This document shows positions 1,776 to 28,113 of a stretch of DNA of 28,764 nt, piece by piece. The notes beneath the pieces were generated by a model that saw only the letters and a program-made list of their open reading frames with translations, had not been told where the DNA came from and searched no databases. Made by a program: the position numbers and the translations under genes. Positions within the stretch are counted from its first letter, which is position 1. Each line of letters opens with the position of its first letter. The stretch is from Phoronis ovalis. Its lineage: Eukaryota > Phoronida > Phoronidae. The stretch is taken from NCBI GenBank assembly GCA_028565635.1, contig JAOXYB010037062.1, positions 1 to 28,764 on the forward strand. The letters are read 5' to 3'.

Positions 1776-2488
1776 CATACCATATGATTTCCCTCCCCCG
1801 ACTAATGTAGATGTAGACAATTAGCTTAAAGAATATTTTGTATATAACTATAACTACAAGATATCTACTCCTAACGAGGAATCCAATCAGAGCACAATTA
1901 ACAATCAAAAAAGGTGTGGAAAGTTCTTGAAGAAACTTTCTGACTTGAATCTAAGAGTGGGTGATATTCCTCGAATGCATCACATGTCTTGTTAATACGT
2001 ATGGACACTTGTCCTAGCTCAATTCAAGTCATGTTTCAAGCGGGATCGCGGAAAATGAATGATGACGCCATACAAAACAAAGCACAAGCTGAAATATATG
2101 TTATTGGTGTACTAAGTCTTATTTTCGAATTCAGGTTTTCGAATAACAATCACAAAAGGGTTGTCAGAACTCGGATGCTCACCTATTCGGTTAGACTTTT
2201 CTGTGTAAGAACGATCAAGGACAAATTTAAATTGACAACTCGCGCCGTCTTCTTGTTGAAAATGGAGGCTGTCCTGTGAACGTCCACAACTAAAAGTTGT
2301 TAACGGAAATGCAATTTTAGCATAAAAATATTTTTTAAAATCTAAATAAATATCGTTAGTCATACCACTAAATATTAGTTAAACTGTATACATTGTTTAT
2401 TTAGAATTCTCATCAAAATTAATAGAAGATATTGTTCATTATTTTTTATGATTTTCTTTTCTTAAATATTTTTGTAACAAAATCCAAC

Positions 2489-12588
<10,100 letters not shown>

Positions 12589-17766: not shown

Positions 17767-18357
17767 TTAAGAATCAATTATCAGCGGTGCGTGTTGTTCA
17801 GCCTTGGCAAGTTCGTCCTCATGATGAGCTTTATGAATACTGTTTTCCCTTATATGAACAATGTCTCCATTTTCATTCCCAGATGATTGTTTGGGATCGA
17901 TTTTCAACATTTCAACAGTCTCAATGTTCACAATTTTGGGGCTATCTATTTCATCTAAACCAGCAAGAGAGTCATTAGAAGTCCCAACCTCATCATTGTC
18001 ATATAAGCTCGTGTTATCCTCATTGCTTGTACCATGAACACGATGTCTGCTCCCAGGAGAGTTTTCATTGCTACGAGGGGAGCCATTATAGGATTCCGTT
18101 TTTGAGCTCTGTGATGGCACATCAGGATCAAATTCTTCATCATGGCGTGGGCCAGAAACTGAATTGTCAGCAATATCATCAAAGCTAGCACCTGGTGTAT
18201 GGGACACTGCTGACAAACGACTGCGTGATATACGACGGCCAGATTCGGTGGACAGGAGACGGCGTTCTTTAGGGTGTGCTCGTAAGAAAGGTTCTGCTTG
18301 CGGTATAAAATCACTAAGATCTACTGGACCTATCTGCACTGGTTCTGTTTGCGTCAT
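17767..18357 (-). CDS. Neuregulin-like: last coding exon, most of the cytoplasmic tail
   Basis: The exon opens in phase 0 after ATTTTTAG and encodes 196 residues to a stop. It is polar and rich in Ser, Asp, Glu and Asn, so probably disordered. A basic Ser cluster, SGRRISRSRLSAVS, contains an R-R-x-S protein kinase A-type consensus. The end reads HAPLIIDS. Its first codon is ATG, but similarity of the preceding exons and phase agreement show it is a downstream exon rather than a separate gene. Beyond the juxtamembrane part the tail does not obviously align with vertebrate NRG tails. Confidence 0.85.
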   Translation of the reverse strand: MTQTEPVQIGPVDLSDFIPQAEPFLRAHPKERRLLSTESGRRISRSRLSAVSHTPGASFDDIADNSVSGPRHDEEFDPDVPSQSSKTESYNGSPRSNENSPGSRHRVHGTSNEDNTSLYDNDEVGTSNDSLAGLDEIDSPKIVNIETVEMLKIDPKQSSGNENGDIVHIRENSIHKAHHEDELAKAEQHAPLIIDS

Positions 18358-21300
18358 CTAAAAATACACAAATACAATTGCTTATTAATTTGTAGTTAAT
18401 TTCTAGAACTATGACATAACATCTAAATGTGCTATATGCCTGAACTTGCATGTTTTTTTTTCGAATTTGTTTTTTATCAGTGTGGAATATGGTTTTAGTA
18501 TTTTTTTCAAAATGCTAGTAGTAATGGGGTTCCACACTTTAATATTAAATTAACTTAGAAATCAAAAGTTCTCAGAATTGGCATTAATCCATCTGAAAGT
18601 AGACTGCACTTATTAGAAATCTATAAAGGGAAACCACTGTTATTAGAGCCCTAGATTCAATCAAGGGAACTGAAAAGATTATGCCAACCATGTGTAACTA
18701 AGCTTTAGGAATTAAATGCTTTATCAGATATTGAAAGGGAATTAAATTTATAAAGTTTACTGTGCATCTGATTTAAAACTTAGGGATCACCACAAAAAAG
18801 GAAATATCATATAGAAAAGCCTAATAATTCAAAGTTATTTTTAAACATAGGTTAAAACAAAGGATACATTAATACCATACTGTTAAGTGTTATAAAAGTT
18901 GGAAACATTCAAACATTCAGATTTTTTTTTTTTAATTTAAATCTTTCAGAACATTTATTTGAATTATGCAGTGACAAAATTATGTTACTACAGCAACTTC
19001 TTCTAATTTACTGACCAGACAGTTAACCTGGGTGGGGTTCATGTTATACATTCTCCACAGAAACCCTTATGCAACTTCATATGTTACAGGCAGGTAACAA
19101 ATTGGAAAGATAGTGAAAAACATGAAGTTAGAACACATCCTGTGACTATCTTATAAAATTAGCATCATTACAAGAGTTATTAAATCCAATCTTTGTAACA
19201 TTAATTTACCTGCTTATCACCTTTGAATGATACGCTATACTGAAAATGCATTAAAGCATGTATATACTAGTCTAACATACTTAACATAAAACAATTCTGT
19301 AGAAGTCATCTACAACAGATGTGTAATTCACGCAACATCCAAAATGTCTCACAAAATATTCCATTGATATTTGTATTTTGGTTCAGTTTTTTTTTTCAGC
19401 ACTAACCATTTATTTCAGGTTCTTAAATTTAGTGATAGGCTGCTAACCAAAAGGTGAATAGTTCAATTTCAATACTTGTTCAAAATATCTTTCACTGAAT
19501 TTTTTTAAAATTTTAACTGAAATCATCTTAAAGAAACACACAATTTGTTACTTTTAATTTTGGATCAAACTCCAGCTCCTTTTAGGACTGCAAGTTTTTG
19601 AGTTAAACTTTAAAAACATACTGGTATAATACTAGACTGACATTAGTGATTAGAAACATAAATTGGAATTTATAAATTTAGCAATGCATACATAGTTCCT
19701 ACAATAAACTGAACTCCCTCCGTTATGTGCTTATTAACAATACACTAGCATATACTGTACATGTCTATGTGATATACTTATGTCTGTGGGTTATAATGTG
19801 TTAGGTTTTAACTTCAAAAGAAAATTAAGTATTTAGAAAATACTTTTGAATTACTTGATATATATTTTAATTATCTAATAATAACAGTGCTGATTAATAT
19901 TCAGTGTCCTCTACAAAAAAATTATACTTGTTCAAGGCACCAATGAACTTCAGTACATAAACCATATATTATTTATGAAAATTTTGTCTATCCATGTTTG
20001 GGATTTACATAAATATTATAATTGGCCCTGGAACATGTATACACTATTTTATGGAGAACACCAATATTAGTCCAGTATATTACGTGTACGTTACTTATAT
20101 AACCAATAATATGATACTTACACTACAGGCTCTTTGCACAAGCGGTCGCATACTGATGACTTGCGCGGGTCCAGTGCGTGGGTGATCAACATCATCGTCA
20201 CATCTAACATAGTTGCTAAAATTTATACGTTCTTGTTCATGCATTTTTCTTTGTTTGCCTTTTTTCCTGAAAACATTTTTATAGGAATATAGACAATATA
20301 TTCAAGTTAAAAAATGAACAGTTTAATAACTAGTCAGTAATTTAATTTAATGTTGATTTTCCAAAATTCATGGATTGTACATGACTTGTTCTGACACCAA
20401 AATATTTGCATCTGATATCAGTTAAAATTTTTGAAAGGAAAGATGTAAAAATACGTAATAAATTACCAACAATAATGATATCTGACTATCAAAATCAATA
20501 CATTTTTTTTCCATATTCTTACCAGGATAAAAACCATCCAACCAGCACTATAGAAAGTAAAACAACAACACCAATACAAATGCCCAAAATTGTTATAGTT
20601 CTGTCTTTGTTCTTTAAGTCTTCCATGATTTTATCTAAAATAGTAGAAATAAAATCGTAAGTTCATATACCTGGCAAGCAAAGACATTACCAGAAATAAT
20701 CGTTATAATATACCAGCTTCATCAGCTGCATTTTAAGTACCAGTTAAAAAAATCATTTGGAAACTATAAAGGATAACTATCACTTGCCAGACTTTCACAC
20801 AACTTCGATGGGAAAATTTAAAAACACCAAATACAGACCCATGTTGTCATTTTTTGGTTCCTTTACTTCAATATTTTAAATTAAGGTGGTTAGTCCTGTT
20901 CGCGGGGATAATTTTGGGAGGTAATTGAAGACTTATATAAGTATACATTTTTGGGTACTAATAATATGAAGATCTTGAAACATTATTTTCCTTGTTTGTC
21001 TAATGGGTGAAAACACACTTTTTTCAAAACAAACTTTTCAAAAATACAAGTCCCAAACCCCTATAGATGCAAAGTTGAAACTATGCTAAAGTTTACTTTC
21101 AACAGTTTCTCAAATTTTTTAAATTTTGCTCCATTTTTAAATGATGTGCTTTTTAACATATGGATGTATGCAAAACAAAATTTTCTGGCTAGCAAACAAA
21201 ATGAAGTTTGAAGGAACAAAACTTTTGAATAAAGCAAAATTTTAAAAATATGAAATATACATTTCGAGATTACATTTTAAAGCTAATTTTGGCAAAGTTT

Positions 21301-24300
21301 CAGGGGTGTTGGACTTGCATATCTTGAAGTGTGTTTTGAAAAAAGTGATATTTCACCAAAAAATTCCCTTGTTGATTACATAATCACTTGCCACCTTAAG
21401 CAAGATTTAACAAAAACCTGTAGAAGCACAGGACATATGTCTATCATGCATATACTAGCATTTTGATTTATTTATTCATTGTATACTTTATGAATGCTAA
21501 CAAAAACTATTTAGGTACTGCTAGCATTTTTTAAAGCTTCAAACATGCAGCAAACCAGACAAATAACATTGGAGGGTGAAAATTTTACACAAAAAATTGA
21601 TCTTGTTAATGCAATTAATCTATGTCCATTTTCAATTTATGTACAACTAACCTATGTCTAACAACTAACATGCTGTTGAGAAACATTTCAAAGGAAATAT
21701 AATTGCTAATTAAGCAGAGAAGTAGAAAGTTAAAAGTAAAAATTGTGTTCAGAAATTAATTACATTAAATTGGTTTTCAAACTTTTAGCAGATAAAAACT
21801 CCTACACATTTTAAGAGTATAAATTGCAGGGTGTCCAATTTCAGTTACTGGATGGGTATAAATCTAATTACAAATGGAATAATAGTTTGCATACAAGTTT
21901 TTTTCATCATGGTAAGGATTAGGCTTTAAAACAGAGATTAGCAATTTGTTTCAGCAAGTGTGATATGATGACAGTATTTATGTAACCCATCACAACAGAA
22001 ACTTGTTAATCAACAGTTTATATTGCCTGAACTCCCTGTAACCAGAAGATATATATGGCACCTGACAGATCAGTATGATGGTTACTGAGTACTATTATTT
22101 TGAAATGATAGCACTGTCATTCAATTTGAAAAAATTAACATCATGGGCACACAGGCATCTATTAGGAAACAAAATCTGGAAGTACACATTTTATTGGTTT
22201 TAATGTATTAGGCTCTTATTGAAAATTAGCTATTAGATTTGATACATAGGATTCCTGTTACCACTATTACAAGCAAACTTTTATTAGCTTTTCCAGTAAA
22301 ACAATTATCATAGAATAAAGGCTGCACGCAAATTAAGCAATTTAAATGATTACAAGGAATACCTGCAACTGTAGATTTTATTTGTAGAAGTACAGAAAAA
22401 TAATAACAAGCATAACACACAAAAATACACAAAAGTTAGAAAGGAAGCAATGTCGGAATTACTATGATTTCCAAAGCAAAGAAAGATGCAAATTCAGCAT
22501 AACCAAGTTACAAATAACATGCAGCTTCTGTCAAAAGAGCTACTGTAACAAGTGAAGGCCAGATAATTGTCACTTGATAATAAGTGACACATCTTATTAC
22601 TATAAAAGAGTACCTTCACCATCAGCAATCGTCACATGCAAATTTAGTATTGGGTTAGTAGATAAGCATCATTATTTGTCATCAGTAATTCAGTCTGAGG
22701 TAAAAACTTTCATTTCCATGCCTGCTGAACTAAATTTTTTAAACATAATGCAACATGATGCATATATAATCACTGGCAAATACGTACTTGCTTTTACTCC
22801 GTCTAATATAATGAAGGGGTCCTGGAATTGGCATCGTGCGCCACTGTACCGTGATGGGCACCTTAAGTAAGAAATCAGATAACAGTGAAAAAGGAGATAC
22901 AACATGGAAAGGGTTCTTGTAAAGCAAGGACAGACAGCAGTCAACAGGCAGTTAGCAGCACACACCATGATAGCGGGTAGTCCTGAAAATTCTTCACTAA
23001 TTTTATTAGATCTTAAAGCATTGGATTTATAACACTACAATCTAAGTATTTAATCATCATGCGAGGCAGGGAAATTTTGTATCACAAAATATGGACAGAA
23101 ATGCAGGTTAGTAAAACATGAAAATTTCTACTTTTCTACATTTCTATAACTTTTTGAATCGTGCATTTACCTACAAATTTTTAGCAAGTATATGTCTTTA
23201 TTGTATATGTACATATAAGTAGCACTTAATGAAACGTATTTTCTCTTTTATAATTTTTTTTAGTTTTTGGACATACAGTTCTCCATATTACGTAAATCAG
23301 ATTTTCCTACCTCATGCCATGCTTTAAGATCTGACCAAAACTAGTGAATAAAACATTTAAATTGAAACCTCTTGAACTAACTAATGAAAATTAAAGAGGT
23401 CTCGACGACACAAATGTTCAACACTCGCTGATTACCTACCAACATTAGGTAGCACCCTGGTGGTGGGAACTATTACTGTTTTTGACTGGCATCGTTTTCC
23501 ATCATAACCGTTACGACAGCTGTATTACAAAATTAAAATACAGTGTTACAGTGGATAAAGGAGTAATAATTACAATATAAATTGACATATGATTTTGTTG
23601 TCATGTTCTACATTGCCCTTGTTTTTTGGTATGTAATGTTGCATTCATCCAAGTAGTAGGTAGAAAACAATTCTGAGGGTATTATCACTGCATGAACCAA
23701 TTTAAAAGTACATAGCCTGAATGCATATGAAGATTAAGGTCCCCTTGCATATACACATTTGATTACATCACAGATATATTATGCACTATATCAAAAAATT
23801 AAGCCTAGTGGAAGGGCAACATACAATAAAATACATGACAAAAGAATCATGTCAATGAAAACTATAATAATTAGTTATCACTTGTAAAAAAAATAAAGAT
23901 TATTTAACAAACAGTTGGTCTCTGAGAGATACCTAACATTTAAGGAACTATATATTTGATAGCCTAGATGATAGCATTGGTGTATATAGATAAAGCCTAA
24001 ATGTCAGAATACAAGATTCTGAAGTCTTATCAAAGTGTGAACACAACAAAAGAAAGTGTTTGCAGAAGGCAACTTAAACTGCAAAGAAAATTGGATGTTG
24101 TCCAGGGTAACTTGCGCCACGATGCAAATGCAAATGTCATTGTAATATTTCCTGAATTTTGAAAAACACATGCCTTATGTACTGCATTATTGGAAGAACA
24201 TTATTATCAATGATTAGCGAGCACAGATGAGGAGGTATCTGTACATCTTCATTAATTTTGCTGAAATTCTGCCTGCGCTATTATATTCTAGAATTAACGA

Positions 24301-27300
24301 TGTATCTCCAACAGATTTATCTCCACAACTTACTGGAGTAGCTATTTGTATAAAACGCAGGTATTGTCAGCAGCCTCACAATAACTGTTTTTTTTTATTT
24401 GTCGACTTACCTACAGCTTTTTTCACGAACACCATCAAGAGTGGGATAATATACACATGTTCCCCCATTTAAACAATAAGTCTGCTTTTCACATTCACGC
24501 CAGTGCCCTCTTGCTGAAATTGAACAAATGATATTTTAGCGCACAATCTGACAACCTGACCTACCAGATTATAGTAGTAGTACAAAAGCAGCATCTAACC
24601 CATCTGATCAATTAATTCAGTAGTTTAATTTATTTTCTATATATTTTTGGAGAAAAAAATAGGGAATACAAAGCCTGAATAATATTATGTTCACTTTTTA
24701 TACTGTTTCCACATTTTTTACACTAACTCCAGATAATAATCAGTTCATAAGGTTAAATTTCAGAAATGCCAACCTATTTAATTTTTTTTCTAAAAGGTAT
24801 AAATATTGAGGCCTAGAACTCCTAAAGGGGGGTGCTCTAATATAAACAAAGCAACACAAAGCAACGTAAATTAAATTATGTTGTTTTTTCTTACCTATCA
24901 ACTACTACAATATCATTCAGCTTATAAAAAAATGTTTTTGCTTTTTTAAAATAGAAACTAAATCAAGTATCTATTAATGTCATTTTTGACACTTGTCTAG
25001 TTTTGTACACACATATCAATCAGCGCACTCTCACCAACAAGTCATTAAAAAGAAACTGATACACACAAGACAGTTCTGGTTCAGGAGGAAGGCAACTAAA
25101 AAACTACTTTGCTTGTTCCTTCTCTTCATTAAATGATACATACACCCCATGCATTTTGTGTTAATTATTTTAGGTTTAGGGTAGGAAGGGATACTTGGGT
25201 TTAAAATAACACATAAAGCATTCACTTTTTTTTTGCACATGGATAATATTGTGCATATTTGAATGTATAATAGATACTGTCTATTGTTTGATAAAAAATA
25301 ACTACAAGTTAACCTTTGTGTCATATTCATTTAATAAATATTACACTTACTTGTCTTACTTGTTGTTGATGGTGGTGAGGCAGTAGTTTCAGGTAACCTC
25401 ACTGAAAGAAAAAATGCATGATCAATAAATAGATTTCATAGAATTTGTGTTATACAAAGAGCATGCAGAATTTAAATAGCTATGGCAAATATAGACTCTG
25501 TCAGTGACAGTTTCAGATGGAATTGTAATAATTGCTTATTGGCAGTAGCACTAAAATTATTCAGACAGGTTAATTTTCAATTAAGACAACCACACACAAG
25601 TAAAGCACCTGTTACAATAATTCCAAAAAATGCTTACATTACAAAGCTAGATTTGATTTAGCTCTGAAGGCCAAAAGATCAGCAATTACCCATACTGGTA
25701 ATGTTCTCCTTGACAAACAAAATTTATGATCATTTGAGAGTCATTTACATTTGCTGTGAAGATGAAGGAGTAGCTACTAAATTTGGATATTCACATATAT
25801 CAAGTATTATTATTTGTGAGAAACAAAATTATATACTTTTTTCAGTTCAACAATATTCAATATTCATAATTCACAATGTTTACTGTACTGCTTTGTGCAT
25901 AATGAGTGTAGTTCATTACAGAACTTGCATTGCACCATATAAATGTTTTCTTTATACATCTACCTAAATCTGTTTCAGATTTCTATCACATTTGGAGGCC
26001 CAATGTTATAGTTTGATACAATAATTAGGCTATAATCAAGCTCTTGTTCTTAGGATTTAATTTGTACCATATTTGCCTGGTGGGCACTAGCTTTTAGTTT
26101 TTATTGCCCAGCTATTTTCTTTGGCAATTAAACAACTAAACTTGTTTTACTGAATTACAAGAAAAACATAGCACAAAGTTAATGTTTTGTTTACATTTTC
26201 AAGGAAAAAATATTTTGATGATGCCATTCAAATGCTTTATTGCTCAAAATTCTGAGTCACTCGTTTTTAGAAAGAATTGCACAATAATTTAATTTTTGTT
26301 CGAAACTTTTCTAAAAAATTTAATTAGGAAATATCAGCACTGTAACTCTTACGCACTACACTATCCTTTTTAACTTGCAACACTGCAGAGACAGTTGTCG
26401 AGTCAAGTACAGACATTTCACTTCAGTAAAAAAAAAACATTTAAGAATTGTTTGATTTGTGAATTTATCTGAATATGCAATGAAAACCTAGCAACAACAC
26501 CATTTATAAACCACATGTTTGACATCAGTTTTTTATTGTGTGTTAAATTTGTTTAAGAGCAATAATAAGATGTTGGGATCATTAAATTGGAAAACAGTGA
26601 TGACAGATGGAAAGAGCCTTTTATAAGTTAAATGATGCACCATAGGGGGCAGCCTTGAGAAAGTTCAACAGTCTGTAAATCCTACTTTGGGCGGCACAAG
26701 AAAACATTGAAGATAATGAAAGGTATGAATAAAGTGTATGTAATGCATAAAAAATACAAAAGTTGAATGTGCCACAGAAATTTTATAATTCTTTTGGCCA
26801 CAACTGAAATGCCATCAAGTTGTCAACAGTTGCACAGAGAAAGGCAATGGACTTTCAGTCTGCCTTGGTGGAGCAAATCAATCAGCAAATCACCCTAATT
26901 AACACTACAAGAACACAGAAGCATCTGGTAGACAGCCAGAATGCAGTATTCCAACCAGAAATCCAACATGCAACTCAGCCCAAGCCTTGGTAGTACATTT
27001 GCTATACCTGTGCAGTAACAAGACATCTGGATGAAGAAAAGATATGCAGATTTCGGTCTACTGTTTTGCAACAAATAATGTCATTCACATTGTTTGCGCC
27101 AAATTACATTACATCCCAGAACTAGGTCCTAAGAAGTGATTGGTACATGCAGCACAAGAATTAATTTAATTAGTGTTAATAATGGCTGTGCACCATTCAA
27201 GTCCGGAATTCCTTTCCACTGAGATTTAAATAATTGCAAACTTAATTTATAAAATTCCTATTGTTTATTGTTTTACTTCAGGTTACAATCAGTTTGCACA

Positions 27301-28113
27301 CATCTGTGTGCATATCAGCCCTTCCATGTCAGATCCTGTCACAGGGCATCACAATCAACTCCATGCAAAAATTTAGCTGACCAGCAATTGCTACAGTGAC
27401 CTTATGTGAACCATGCGAATAAGATGTCTGTTGTCTGCAGTTCATGCTGTGAAACACAGAAGCCAGATAACAATATGCCTTGAGGGTGCTTACTGGCCAG
27501 ATGGCCCCAGATGAACTTGAAATAGATTACTATCTCCTATGAAATAACTTTCATATGTCCGCAAATCTCTGAAAACCACAAAGTACAGCTTTTTTTTGGA
27601 AGATCAACCCGACCCAAGAAGGCATAGAGCAAAGCTACAGATCAGGAGCTGTTATGAAATTTGTTATATTAAATGGATAAATGCCGAAAACCACATTTCA
27701 AGATTGTTTCATCTCGCTGTTACCTCAGTGGCATAGTTGTCTCATGCTTCTTTTACAAGTTTTGTTGGTAAGAAACAATAGAGCCACTCCAGATGAAATC
27801 TGGATAGTGTCCTACAGTTTACTGCAATAATTAAGCTAACAGCCAAGTACAACACACACCAATCACAACTGATGACATGATAAACAAATGAGTTTTAAAT
27901 TGGCAATATAATATGCTAGTTCATTGCTTTTAGTGTAACTAAATAACTGAACATACAGAAAAACAAAACCACAAATATGTTGTATAACAAGTACAATAAA
28001 TACCTGAGACATGTATCTCCTTTACATCATCTCCCAAAACATTTCTGGCAACACATTTATAAACACCTTCATCTTTGGTTTGAGCTTTACTTACTTTAAG
28101 TGTTGTACCACTT
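17767..28113 (-). CDS. Neuregulin-like transmembrane ErbB ligand, 3' portion of the gene (5' exons outside the window)
   Basis: Exons in transcript order: 28113-28004 (Ig), 25401-25351 (spacer), 24513-24411 (EGF first part), then either 23519-23440 or 22861-22788 (EGF last part), 20634-20523 (transmembrane), 20266-20122 (juxtamembrane), 18357-17767 (tail, stop). All joins are GT-AG and in phase. The order Ig, Thr/Ser spacer, one EGF, helix, basic stop-transfer, long tail is that of neuregulins. The EGF has C3-x13-C4-x-C5-x8-C6; the 13-residue loop matches NRG1 and differs from the 10-residue loop of EGF itself. The membrane segment TITILGICIG followed by WKKGKQRKMH resembles NRG1 TITGICIA and KTKKQRKKLH. 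Neuregulins are made as membrane precursors, cleaved in the stalk, and activate ErbB receptors. Start codon, signal or N-terminal exons, and the first half of the Ig domain lie beyond 28764. Confidence 0.9.
18358..20121 (-). other. Neuregulin-like intron between juxtamembrane and tail exons
   Basis: The phase 0 intron runs on the minus strand from GTAAGT at 20121 to TTTTTAG at 18358. AT-rich with several T or A runs. No exon, repeat family or RNA gene recognised. Confidence 0.8.
20122..20266 (-). CDS. Neuregulin-like: juxtamembrane cytoplasmic exon
   Basis: The first base completes the TGG codon begun in the transmembrane exon, and 48 codons follow, ending in phase 0 at AGT|GTAAGT. The start, KKGKQRKMHEQ, is a basic stop-transfer sequence closely matching the KKQRKKLHD region of NRG1. 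It is followed by RINFSNYVRCDDDVDHP and ends LVQRACS. In neuregulins this region anchors the precursor and contributes to sorting and intracellular-domain signalling. Confidence 0.85.
20523..20634 (-). CDS. Neuregulin-like: transmembrane exon
   Basis: The exon starts in phase 1 after ATTTTAG and ends in phase 2 at TCCTG|GTAAGA. It encodes a charged stalk, KIMEDLKNKDR, and then a hydrophobic helix of about 22 residues, TITILGICIGVVVLLSIVLV followed by GWFLS. The upstream stalk is where ectodomain shedding would occur. The helix start closely resembles that of vertebrate NRG1. Confidence 0.88.
20635..22787 (-). other. Neuregulin-like intron between EGF last part and transmembrane exon
   Basis: The phase 1 intron on the minus strand begins GTACGT. 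It contains the TTAA-flanked foldback element at 20881-21399. I searched it for a further EGF C-terminal exon (Cys-x8-Cys after an acceptor in phase 2) and found none. Confidence 0.8.
20881..21399. mobile_element. TTAA-flanked foldback MITE
   Basis: The left end TTAAGGTGG (20881-20889) and right end CCACCTTAA (21391-21399) are perfect inverted copies. Either TTAA is a target duplication around GGTGG termini or it is part of the ends. The inverted similarity continues inside: GGTGAAAACACACTTTTTTC near 21006 pairs with GAAAAAAGTGATATTTCACC near 21336-21357, and ACAAGTCCCAAACCCCT near 21047 pairs with AGGGGTGTTGGACTTGC near 21302-21320. At 519 bases, with no coding capacity, it fits a non-autonomous DNA transposon. 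TTAA targets are typical of the piggyBac superfamily, but piggyBac ends usually begin CC rather than GG, so the family is uncertain. Confidence 0.8.
22788..22861 (-). CDS. Neuregulin-like: alternative EGF C-terminal exon 2 (membrane-proximal copy)
   Basis: The exon enters in phase 2 after TTACTTAAG and leaves in phase 1 at GCAA|GTACGT (74 bases). It supplies C5 and C6 as CPSRYSGARC, then the stalk QFQDPFIILDGVKA. Joined to the first EGF exon it gives C4-R-C5-x8-C6. The phase rules out the nearer GTAAAA donor, which would shift the transmembrane frame. The SGARC end resembles the TGARC of NRG1 alpha. Confidence 0.85.
22862..23439 (-). other. Intron between the two alternative EGF exons
   Basis: 578 bases separate the alternative exons, far enough that steric interference between splice sites is unlikely to enforce exclusivity. 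AT-rich; no third EGF-type exon found. Confidence 0.75.
23440..23519 (-). CDS. Neuregulin-like: alternative EGF C-terminal exon 1 (distal copy)
   Basis: The exon enters in phase 2 after TTGTAATACAG and leaves in phase 1 at GTTG|GTAGGT (80 bases). It encodes CRNGYDGKRCQ and then the stalk SKTVIVPTTRVLPNV. Joined to the first EGF exon it gives C4-S-C5-x8-C6 with the Gly-Tyr-x-Gly-x-Arg-Cys pattern typical of an EGF C-loop. The position, Cys spacing and phases equal those of 22788-22861, but the sequence is strongly different. Another donor (GTAATC, four bases further) is out of phase. Confidence 0.82.
23520..24410 (-). other. Intron after the first EGF exon
   Basis: The phase 2 intron on the minus strand starts GTAAGT. 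It contains ATGCAAATGCAAAT at 24122-24135 as an overlapping octamer-like repeat. No additional EGF-type exon was found by the Cys-x8-Cys search. Confidence 0.75.
24411..24513 (-). CDS. Neuregulin-like: EGF domain first part (C1 to C4)
   Basis: The exon enters in phase 1 after ATTTCAG and leaves in phase 2 at TGTAG|GTAAGT. It encodes RGHWRECEKQTYCLNGGTC and then a 13-residue loop ending in EKSC. The spacing is C1-x5-C2-x5-C3-x13-C4. The CxNGGxC core and loop length match the NRG family, and the exon break just after C4 is at the same place as in vertebrate NRG genes. Confidence 0.9.
24514..25350 (-). other. Intron between spacer and EGF exons
   Basis: The phase 1 intron on the minus strand starts GTAAGT. 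AT-rich; nothing recognised. Confidence 0.8.
25351..25401 (-). CDS. Neuregulin-like: Thr/Ser/Pro-rich spacer exon with tandem donors
   Basis: The exon starts in phase 1 after TTTCTTTCAG, whose neighbour completes a Val codon. It encodes RLPETTASPPSTTSKT, a short linker suited to O-glycosylation between Ig and EGF, as in the NRG1 spacer. Two consensus donors lie nine bases apart, GTAAGA (exon end 25360) and GTAAGT (exon end 25351). Both leave phase 1, so isoforms with or without three residues are possible. Confidence 0.8.
25402..28003 (-). other. Long intron between Ig and spacer exons
   Basis: The phase 1 intron on the minus strand starts GTATTT. The stretch from about 26380 to 27860 is less AT-rich and of higher complexity than the rest and may hold a repeat or an alternative first exon. 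A 43-codon Cys-rich hydrophobic minus-strand frame lies at 27026-26895. Nothing is established. Confidence 0.6.
28004..28113 (-). CDS. Neuregulin-like: C-terminal half of an Ig domain
   Basis: The exon enters in phase 2 (its first base completes a codon) after TTTTGTAG and leaves in phase 1 at TCAG|GTATTT. It encodes GTTLKVSKAQ, then the Ig signature DEGVYKC (D-x-G-x-Y-x-C), then the last strands ARNVLGDDVKEIHVS. This resembles the LRINKASLADSGEYMC part of the NRG1 Ig domain. The partner Cys and Trp must lie in an exon beyond 28764. Confidence 0.88.

Follow-up and report, generated by a model that had tools for sequence, protein, structure and literature searches.

Two candidate alternative EGF exons in a neuregulin-type gene of the phoronid Phoronis ovalis and their likeness to the alpha/beta pair of vertebrate NRG1

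The alpha and beta isoforms of vertebrate NRG1 differ in their affinity for ErbB receptors, and the alternative exons that distinguish them are entered in phase 2 and left in phase 1. A contig of the phoronid Phoronis ovalis (JAOXYB010037062.1, assembly GCA_028565635.1), analysed here over its whole length of 28,764 bases and referred to below as the window, raises the question of whether a neuregulin-type gene outside the vertebrates offers the same choice between two exons for the end of its EGF domain. It also raises the question of how old such a choice might be.

The minus strand of the window carries a neuregulin-type ligand gene comprising half of an Ig domain, a spacer, an EGF domain, a transmembrane segment and cytoplasmic exons (Table 1). 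The gene model starts at the Ig exon, 28113-28004, with the contig ending at 28764, and is without the first Ig half or a signal peptide; residues 3-37 match positions 56-90 of the I-set profile, that is, the second half of the domain only. The spacer exon of human NRG1 has the same length as its phoronid counterpart, likewise 51 bases (PMC11360300). The transmembrane segment was judged by eye from its hydrophobic run. Between the common EGF exon and the transmembrane exon lies an intron of 3,776 bases (24410 to 20635), which contains the two candidate exons, A and B, that are the subject of this analysis. On the plus strand the neighbouring gene is RINT1 (window 2426-12588), convergent with the neuregulin-like gene. 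Its extent was judged from open frames, and a RINT1_TIP1 match is found in three of its four pieces, one of the three lying under the curated cut-off.

Table 1. Exons of the neuregulin-type gene in the window, in the order of the minus strand.
Feature	Position	Strand	Length, phase and evidence
Second half of Ig I-set domain	28004..28113	(-)	110 bases, phase 1 exit; I-set 25.4 bits, cut-off 23.7; splice sites
Spacer exon, Ser/Thr/Pro-rich	25351..25401	(-)	51 bases; open frame, splice sites
Common EGF exon, C1-C4	24411..24513	(-)	phase 2 exit, after the second base of the codon that separates C4 from C5
Candidate alternative exon A (proximal), C5-x8-C6 and stalk	23440..23519	(-)	80 bases
Candidate alternative exon B (distal), C5-x8-C6 and stalk	22788..22861	(-)	74 bases
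Stalk end and transmembrane segment	20523..20634	(-)	112 bases; phase 1 entry, phase 2 exit; hydrophobic run ITILGICIGVVVLLSIVLVGWFL
First cytoplasmic exon, basic juxtamembrane run	20122..20266	(-)	145 bases
Last coding exon, cytoplasmic tail and stop codon	17767..18357	(-)	

Assignment of the gene to a family rests upon its parts. NRG-type ligands are defined by an Ig I-set domain, one EGF domain and a transmembrane segment (PMC4914847), and an intron between EGF cysteines 4 and 5, in an EGF domain near the membrane, is the mark of ErbB ligands (PMC1618406). In the phoronid gene the I-set match exceeds its cut-off, the EGF domain exceeds its own Pfam cut-off of 21.5 bits whether completed by A (24.0 bits) or by B (23.3 bits), and a hydrophobic segment follows. 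A phase 2 intron lies past 24411, at the C4/C5 position, and a single exon links the EGF domain to the transmembrane exon. Judged by its Ig and EGF domains, its transmembrane segment and its C4/C5 intron, the predicted product is an NRG-type ErbB ligand, and the neuregulin-like ligand proposed when only the letters of this DNA had been read is borne out. The narrower label of NRG1/NRG2 orthologue was considered and rejected, as no vertebrate-type neuregulin cytoplasmic tail is recognised: no neuregulin tail family appears among the Pfam matches (7 and 9 at E <= 1).

Comparison with known structures places the EGF part close to both EGF and NRG1. Completed by exon A, it matches mouse EGF best among PDB entries (1egf, 28.7 bits), NRG1 still scoring 26.7; completed by exon B, it matches NRG1 best (7mn5, 30.1 bits, a chain which from its loop we take to be NRG1 beta), and EGF scores 28.1. 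Exchanging A for B alone shifts the best match from EGF to NRG1, by small gaps in score. This part of the phoronid gene thus resembles mouse EGF and further ligands of EGFR, from which the gene is distinguished by its Ig domain. With the invertebrate NRG-type ligands, Drosophila vein and its relatives, it has in common both the Ig domain and the single EGF domain. The C4/C5 intron has been reported for vein in every species examined (PMC1618406); vein, however, is secreted, whereas the phoronid product has a transmembrane segment. NRG-type ligands are reported to be widespread in Bilateria (PMC4914847), and by our count of Table 2 in that source at least one occurs in 12 of 20 protostome species and in three of four xenacoelomorphs. 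The same source reports one EGFR and no EGF-type ligand for the phoronid Phoronopsis harmeri, and its ligand table has no phoronid row. In the portions of PMC1618406 and PMC4914847 available to us there is no mention of alternative EGF exons for invertebrate NRG-type ligands.

Exon A encodes the peptide S-CRNGYDGKRC-QSKTVIVPTTRVLPNV and exon B the peptide R-CPSRYSGARC-QFQDPFIILDGVKA. Both are entered in phase 2 and left in phase 1, and the split codon between C4 and C5 is completed as Ser by A and as Arg by B. Across all of the junctions (24411 to 23519 or 22861, then 23440 or 22788 to 20634) the frame remains open as far as the stop at 17767, giving isoforms of 396 residues with A and 394 with B when counting starts at the first complete codon of the Ig exon and runs to the natural stop. 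Joining A to B in one transcript shifts the frame and leads to a stop inside exon B, 19 residues past the last residue of A (PNV). Omission of both brings a stop at the second codon past the junction, and read-through of the A donor adds Gly-Arg and then stops. A membrane-anchored ligand is thus predicted only from transcripts that include exactly one of the two exons. Rebuilt exon by exon, the gene returns the same coordinates, phases and peptides for both segments as the sequence-only reading had given.

Two short segments of this kind might turn up by chance in a large intron, and several measures speak to this point. A tight scan for an AG followed by C-x3-[YFW]-x-G-x2-C in phase 2 and a GT in phase 1 finds two sites in the intron, exactly A and B, and none in the remaining window on either strand. 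A loose scan for C-x8-C finds A and B only in the intron and one more site in the remaining window (26973, minus strand). Across 2000 dinucleotide-shuffled versions of this intron, the mean number of sites per shuffle is 0.001 for the tight scan and 0.075 for the loose one; the latter is the safer bound, because the tight pattern was devised with the exons already known. A coding-like base composition sets the two segments off as well: GC content is 0.45 in A and 0.50 in B versus 0.30-0.32 in the three surrounding introns, and intron windows of equal size reach the value of A in 1.3% of cases and that of B in 0.3%.

Splice-site scores were computed from generic weights. On this scale 2.6% (A) and 3.0% (B) mark the donors' top ranks among GTs in the intron, whereas the acceptors reach only the top 24% (A) and 21% (B) among its AGs. 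The gene's other sites mostly score higher, with four of five donors and five of six acceptors exceeding those of A and B. The donors are moderate and the acceptors weak. Weak splice sites are common among alternative exons. The sequence-only reading had described both exons as having good splice sites, a description that holds only in part. Its broader claim, that two exon-like segments occupy the C5-C6 position of the EGF domain, agrees with the scans, the GC contents, the Pfam scores and the open frames.

The arrangement parallels that of NRG1. There, two successive alternative exons, flanked by a shared EGF exon and by the part that encodes the transmembrane segment, end the EGF domain and supply the stalk. 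In the human gene alpha comes first, as exon 10, and beta follows as exon 11 (PMC7788813), and transcripts with both exons undergo a frame shift in the beta exon (PMC11360300), just as the joint inclusion of A and B shifts the phoronid frame. NRG2 has this exon pair as well, and the alpha and beta forms of NRG1 and NRG2 are entered as separate ligands in PMC1618406. What the phoronid intron holds is a pair of the alpha/beta type, namely two C5-x8-C6 exons with equal phases that are out of frame when both are included; their place, past EGF C4 and ahead of the transmembrane exon, is that of the NRG1 exons, as had been claimed. Unlike vertebrate NRG1, the pair belongs to a protostome, is followed by a tail without a match to the neuregulin tail family and is known from sequence only.

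Residue by residue, the loops of A and B show no clear sorting into the alpha and beta classes. Scored over 11 residues against twelve human ligand loops, A ranges from 31 to 42 and B from 29 to 44. A contrast pairing A with alpha and B with beta yields p 0.37 over 11 residues and 0.91 over 18, with little power at such length.

The reading that we favour, with a probability of about 0.8, is that the gene encodes a membrane-anchored NRG-type ErbB ligand in which A and B are mutually exclusive exons that would alter the ErbB-binding loop and the stalk. The presence of ErbB-like receptor genes in the assembly, described below, is in keeping with this reading. During processing of the pre-mRNA, the common EGF exon with C1-C4 would be spliced to A or to B, never to both. 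A and B would each complete the EGF domain with a different C5-C6 loop and lead to the shared transmembrane exon through a different stalk. Exclusivity would be enforced by phase, since transcripts with A plus B, or with neither, run into an early stop. By analogy with NRG1, both exons may well be used by cells and the choice between them regulated, and the likeness to alpha and beta suggests that exchanging A for B could alter receptor binding, shedding or both. Read-through of the A donor might in addition produce a soluble EGF form comparable to beta3.

Two other accounts of the same exons deserve consideration. One exon alone might be spliced in, the other being an unused or decaying duplicate, and the weak acceptors of both A and B would fit such a history. 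Yet in both exons C5 and C6 are still in register, the glycine and the aromatic residue typical of EGF are present, the frame is open and the phases are identical, even though divergence has left 18 of 34 compared bases identical, and both are GC-rich for their intron. Because a decayed copy would be expected to have lost some of these features, we consider this account unlikely. Alternatively, the second exon might serve mainly to generate truncated soluble forms with a complete A-type EGF domain, through joint inclusion of A and B or through read-through of the A donor. The early stops described above are as this account would have them, and alpha-beta3 and beta3 forms are on record for human NRG1 (PMC11360300, PMC7788813). 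It nonetheless leaves unexplained why B has an intact C5-x8-C6 in the other frame and a phase that reaches the transmembrane exon, and we hold it to be very unlikely.

If the choice between A and B is regulated, the introns that follow the two exons might carry motifs for splicing factors. Among 49 motif-by-intron tests over the seven introns of the gene, from which all of the p values here stem, GCATG occurs three times in the intron between A and B versus 0.34 expected (p 0.003; at 23322, 23317 and 23062, minus strand) and six times in that between B and the transmembrane exon versus 2.11 expected (p 0.027; at 22721, 22639, 22522, 21673, 21548 and 21449, minus strand). An excess of GCATG is absent from the gene's other five introns (p 0.106 or more). 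Also over-represented are YGCY between A and B (10 versus 5.27 expected, p 0.007) and TGCATG between B and the transmembrane exon (four versus 1.06 expected, p 0.033). The GCATG excess after A and after B may point to RbFox-type control, as a lead only.

How A and B are related bears upon their age. They share 6 of 11 loop residues, as do NRG1 alpha and beta, and on this ground are not recent duplicates; since their divergence equals that of human alpha and beta, the duplication appears to be old. A recent duplication of A into B was looked for directly and is not supported: between the 451-base flanks there is no match below E 1.0, and 18 of the 34 bases at the start of the exons are shared. 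When region 22700-24600 was searched as DNA against the assembly (77.4 Mb in 4,805 contigs), one place was found, the window itself, and no second copy. A protein search of the same assembly with isoform B found five places, all within the window, among eight candidates scored. A further protein search with isoform B yielded none at E <= 0.001 among 2748 candidates, in a database that we infer to be poor in eukaryotic relatives and that is uninformative on conservation.

For the origin of the pair we put at even odds an exon duplication in the phoronid's own line, independent of alpha and beta, at the conserved C4/C5 intron; this history is compatible with mutually exclusive use of A and B. 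It would fit with the low-power contrast above, in which the phoronid exons do not pair with the alpha and beta classes, and with the wide reported distribution of NRG-type ligands in Bilateria (PMC4914847) set beside the lack of any report of such invertebrate exons among the open-access matches listed. The position, the phase logic and the order of the pair, all as in NRG1, weigh against it, as does a divergence between A and B that matches that of human alpha and beta and bespeaks an old duplication. It is possible, if rather doubtful, that the choice of C5-C6 exon dates back to the neuregulin of the protostome-deuterostome ancestor, where one ErbB receptor would have served all ligands. 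The rest of the probability falls to one exon being unused or to other histories. Among the open-access matches listed there is no report of alternative EGF exons in invertebrate neuregulins, and in the literature surveyed we found no account of the age of the alternative EGF halves in vertebrate NRG1 and NRG2.

An NRG1-like layout in a lophophorate makes the age of the switch testable. Should the ancient origin be true, the alpha/beta switch would be older than the vertebrate ErbB receptors that it now reputedly discriminates. Retention of both exons in other protostomes and in amphioxus would date the switch to before ErbB receptors expanded; in the opposite case it would have arisen twice at a single fixed intron, and the C4/C5 intron of ErbB ligands would seem to invite such change. 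The device may also be commoner than records suggest, because automatic annotation easily misses exons as short as 74-80 bases when they lie in a large intron; short exons are known to be prone to omission (PMC1618406).

The identity of the host can be read from the mitochondrial contig of the assembly, C1114 (15,713 bases). It contains 21 frames of at least 90 residues under each of codes 4, 5, 9 and 13, and five under vertebrate code 2. The gene for cox1 was identified, and 11 of 12 further submitted frames match the expected Pfam family or superfamily at E <= 0.001, with the nad6 match below its cut-off and nad2 recognised only via a shared antiporter domain; atp8 has a weak match (0.016) and was assigned by its place. 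The large rRNA was found, and the small rRNA, absent from the Rfam matches, was placed in the gap before trnV. ARAGORN reports 24 tRNAs, two of which we take as spurious. Along the cox1 strand the order is cox1, cox2, trnD, atp8, an inverted block from trnF to rrnS, then cox3, atp6, nad3 and nad2.

Phoronids are described as sharing the mitochondrial gene order of the chiton Katharina apart from atp6, whose new place the passage does not name (PMC2678162). The order on C1114 is Katharina-like except for atp6, which lies between cox3 and nad3. The MCYWQGE block of tRNAs has been considered a potential synapomorphy of molluscs, with an inverted strand in Solenogastres (PMC11488289); on C1114 trnM, C, W, Q, G and E, the block minus trnY, lie on the cox1 strand, unlike the inverted block of Solenogastres. 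In annelids the mitochondrial genes are all on one strand (eight of eight in a table of PMC2678162). Mitochondrial code and gene order agree with the invertebrate host surmised from the window and indicate a lophotrochozoan, most likely a phoronid rather than a mollusc or annelid, the agreement in gene order falling short of full proof.

The same assembly contains two ErbB-like receptor genes, at C720:26293-29115 and C726:12767-15532. They encode 1220 and 1392 residues, respectively, each in one open frame without introns, and are 60% identical over 940 residues; a scan for the Receptor L, furin-like, domain IV and kinase domains covered the C720 protein only. Both look like retrocopy-derived or expanded ErbB receptors. 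A many-exon EGFR was not found with the receptor query in the assembly, which is possibly incomplete. An open frame of 485 residues at C2229:1419-1940 gives a weak match to the ErbB-like transmembrane and kinase part (28% identity, E 7.5e-8). Finally, receptor L-domain exons are present at C50:7669-16277, and by eye these look like part of an insulin-type receptor.
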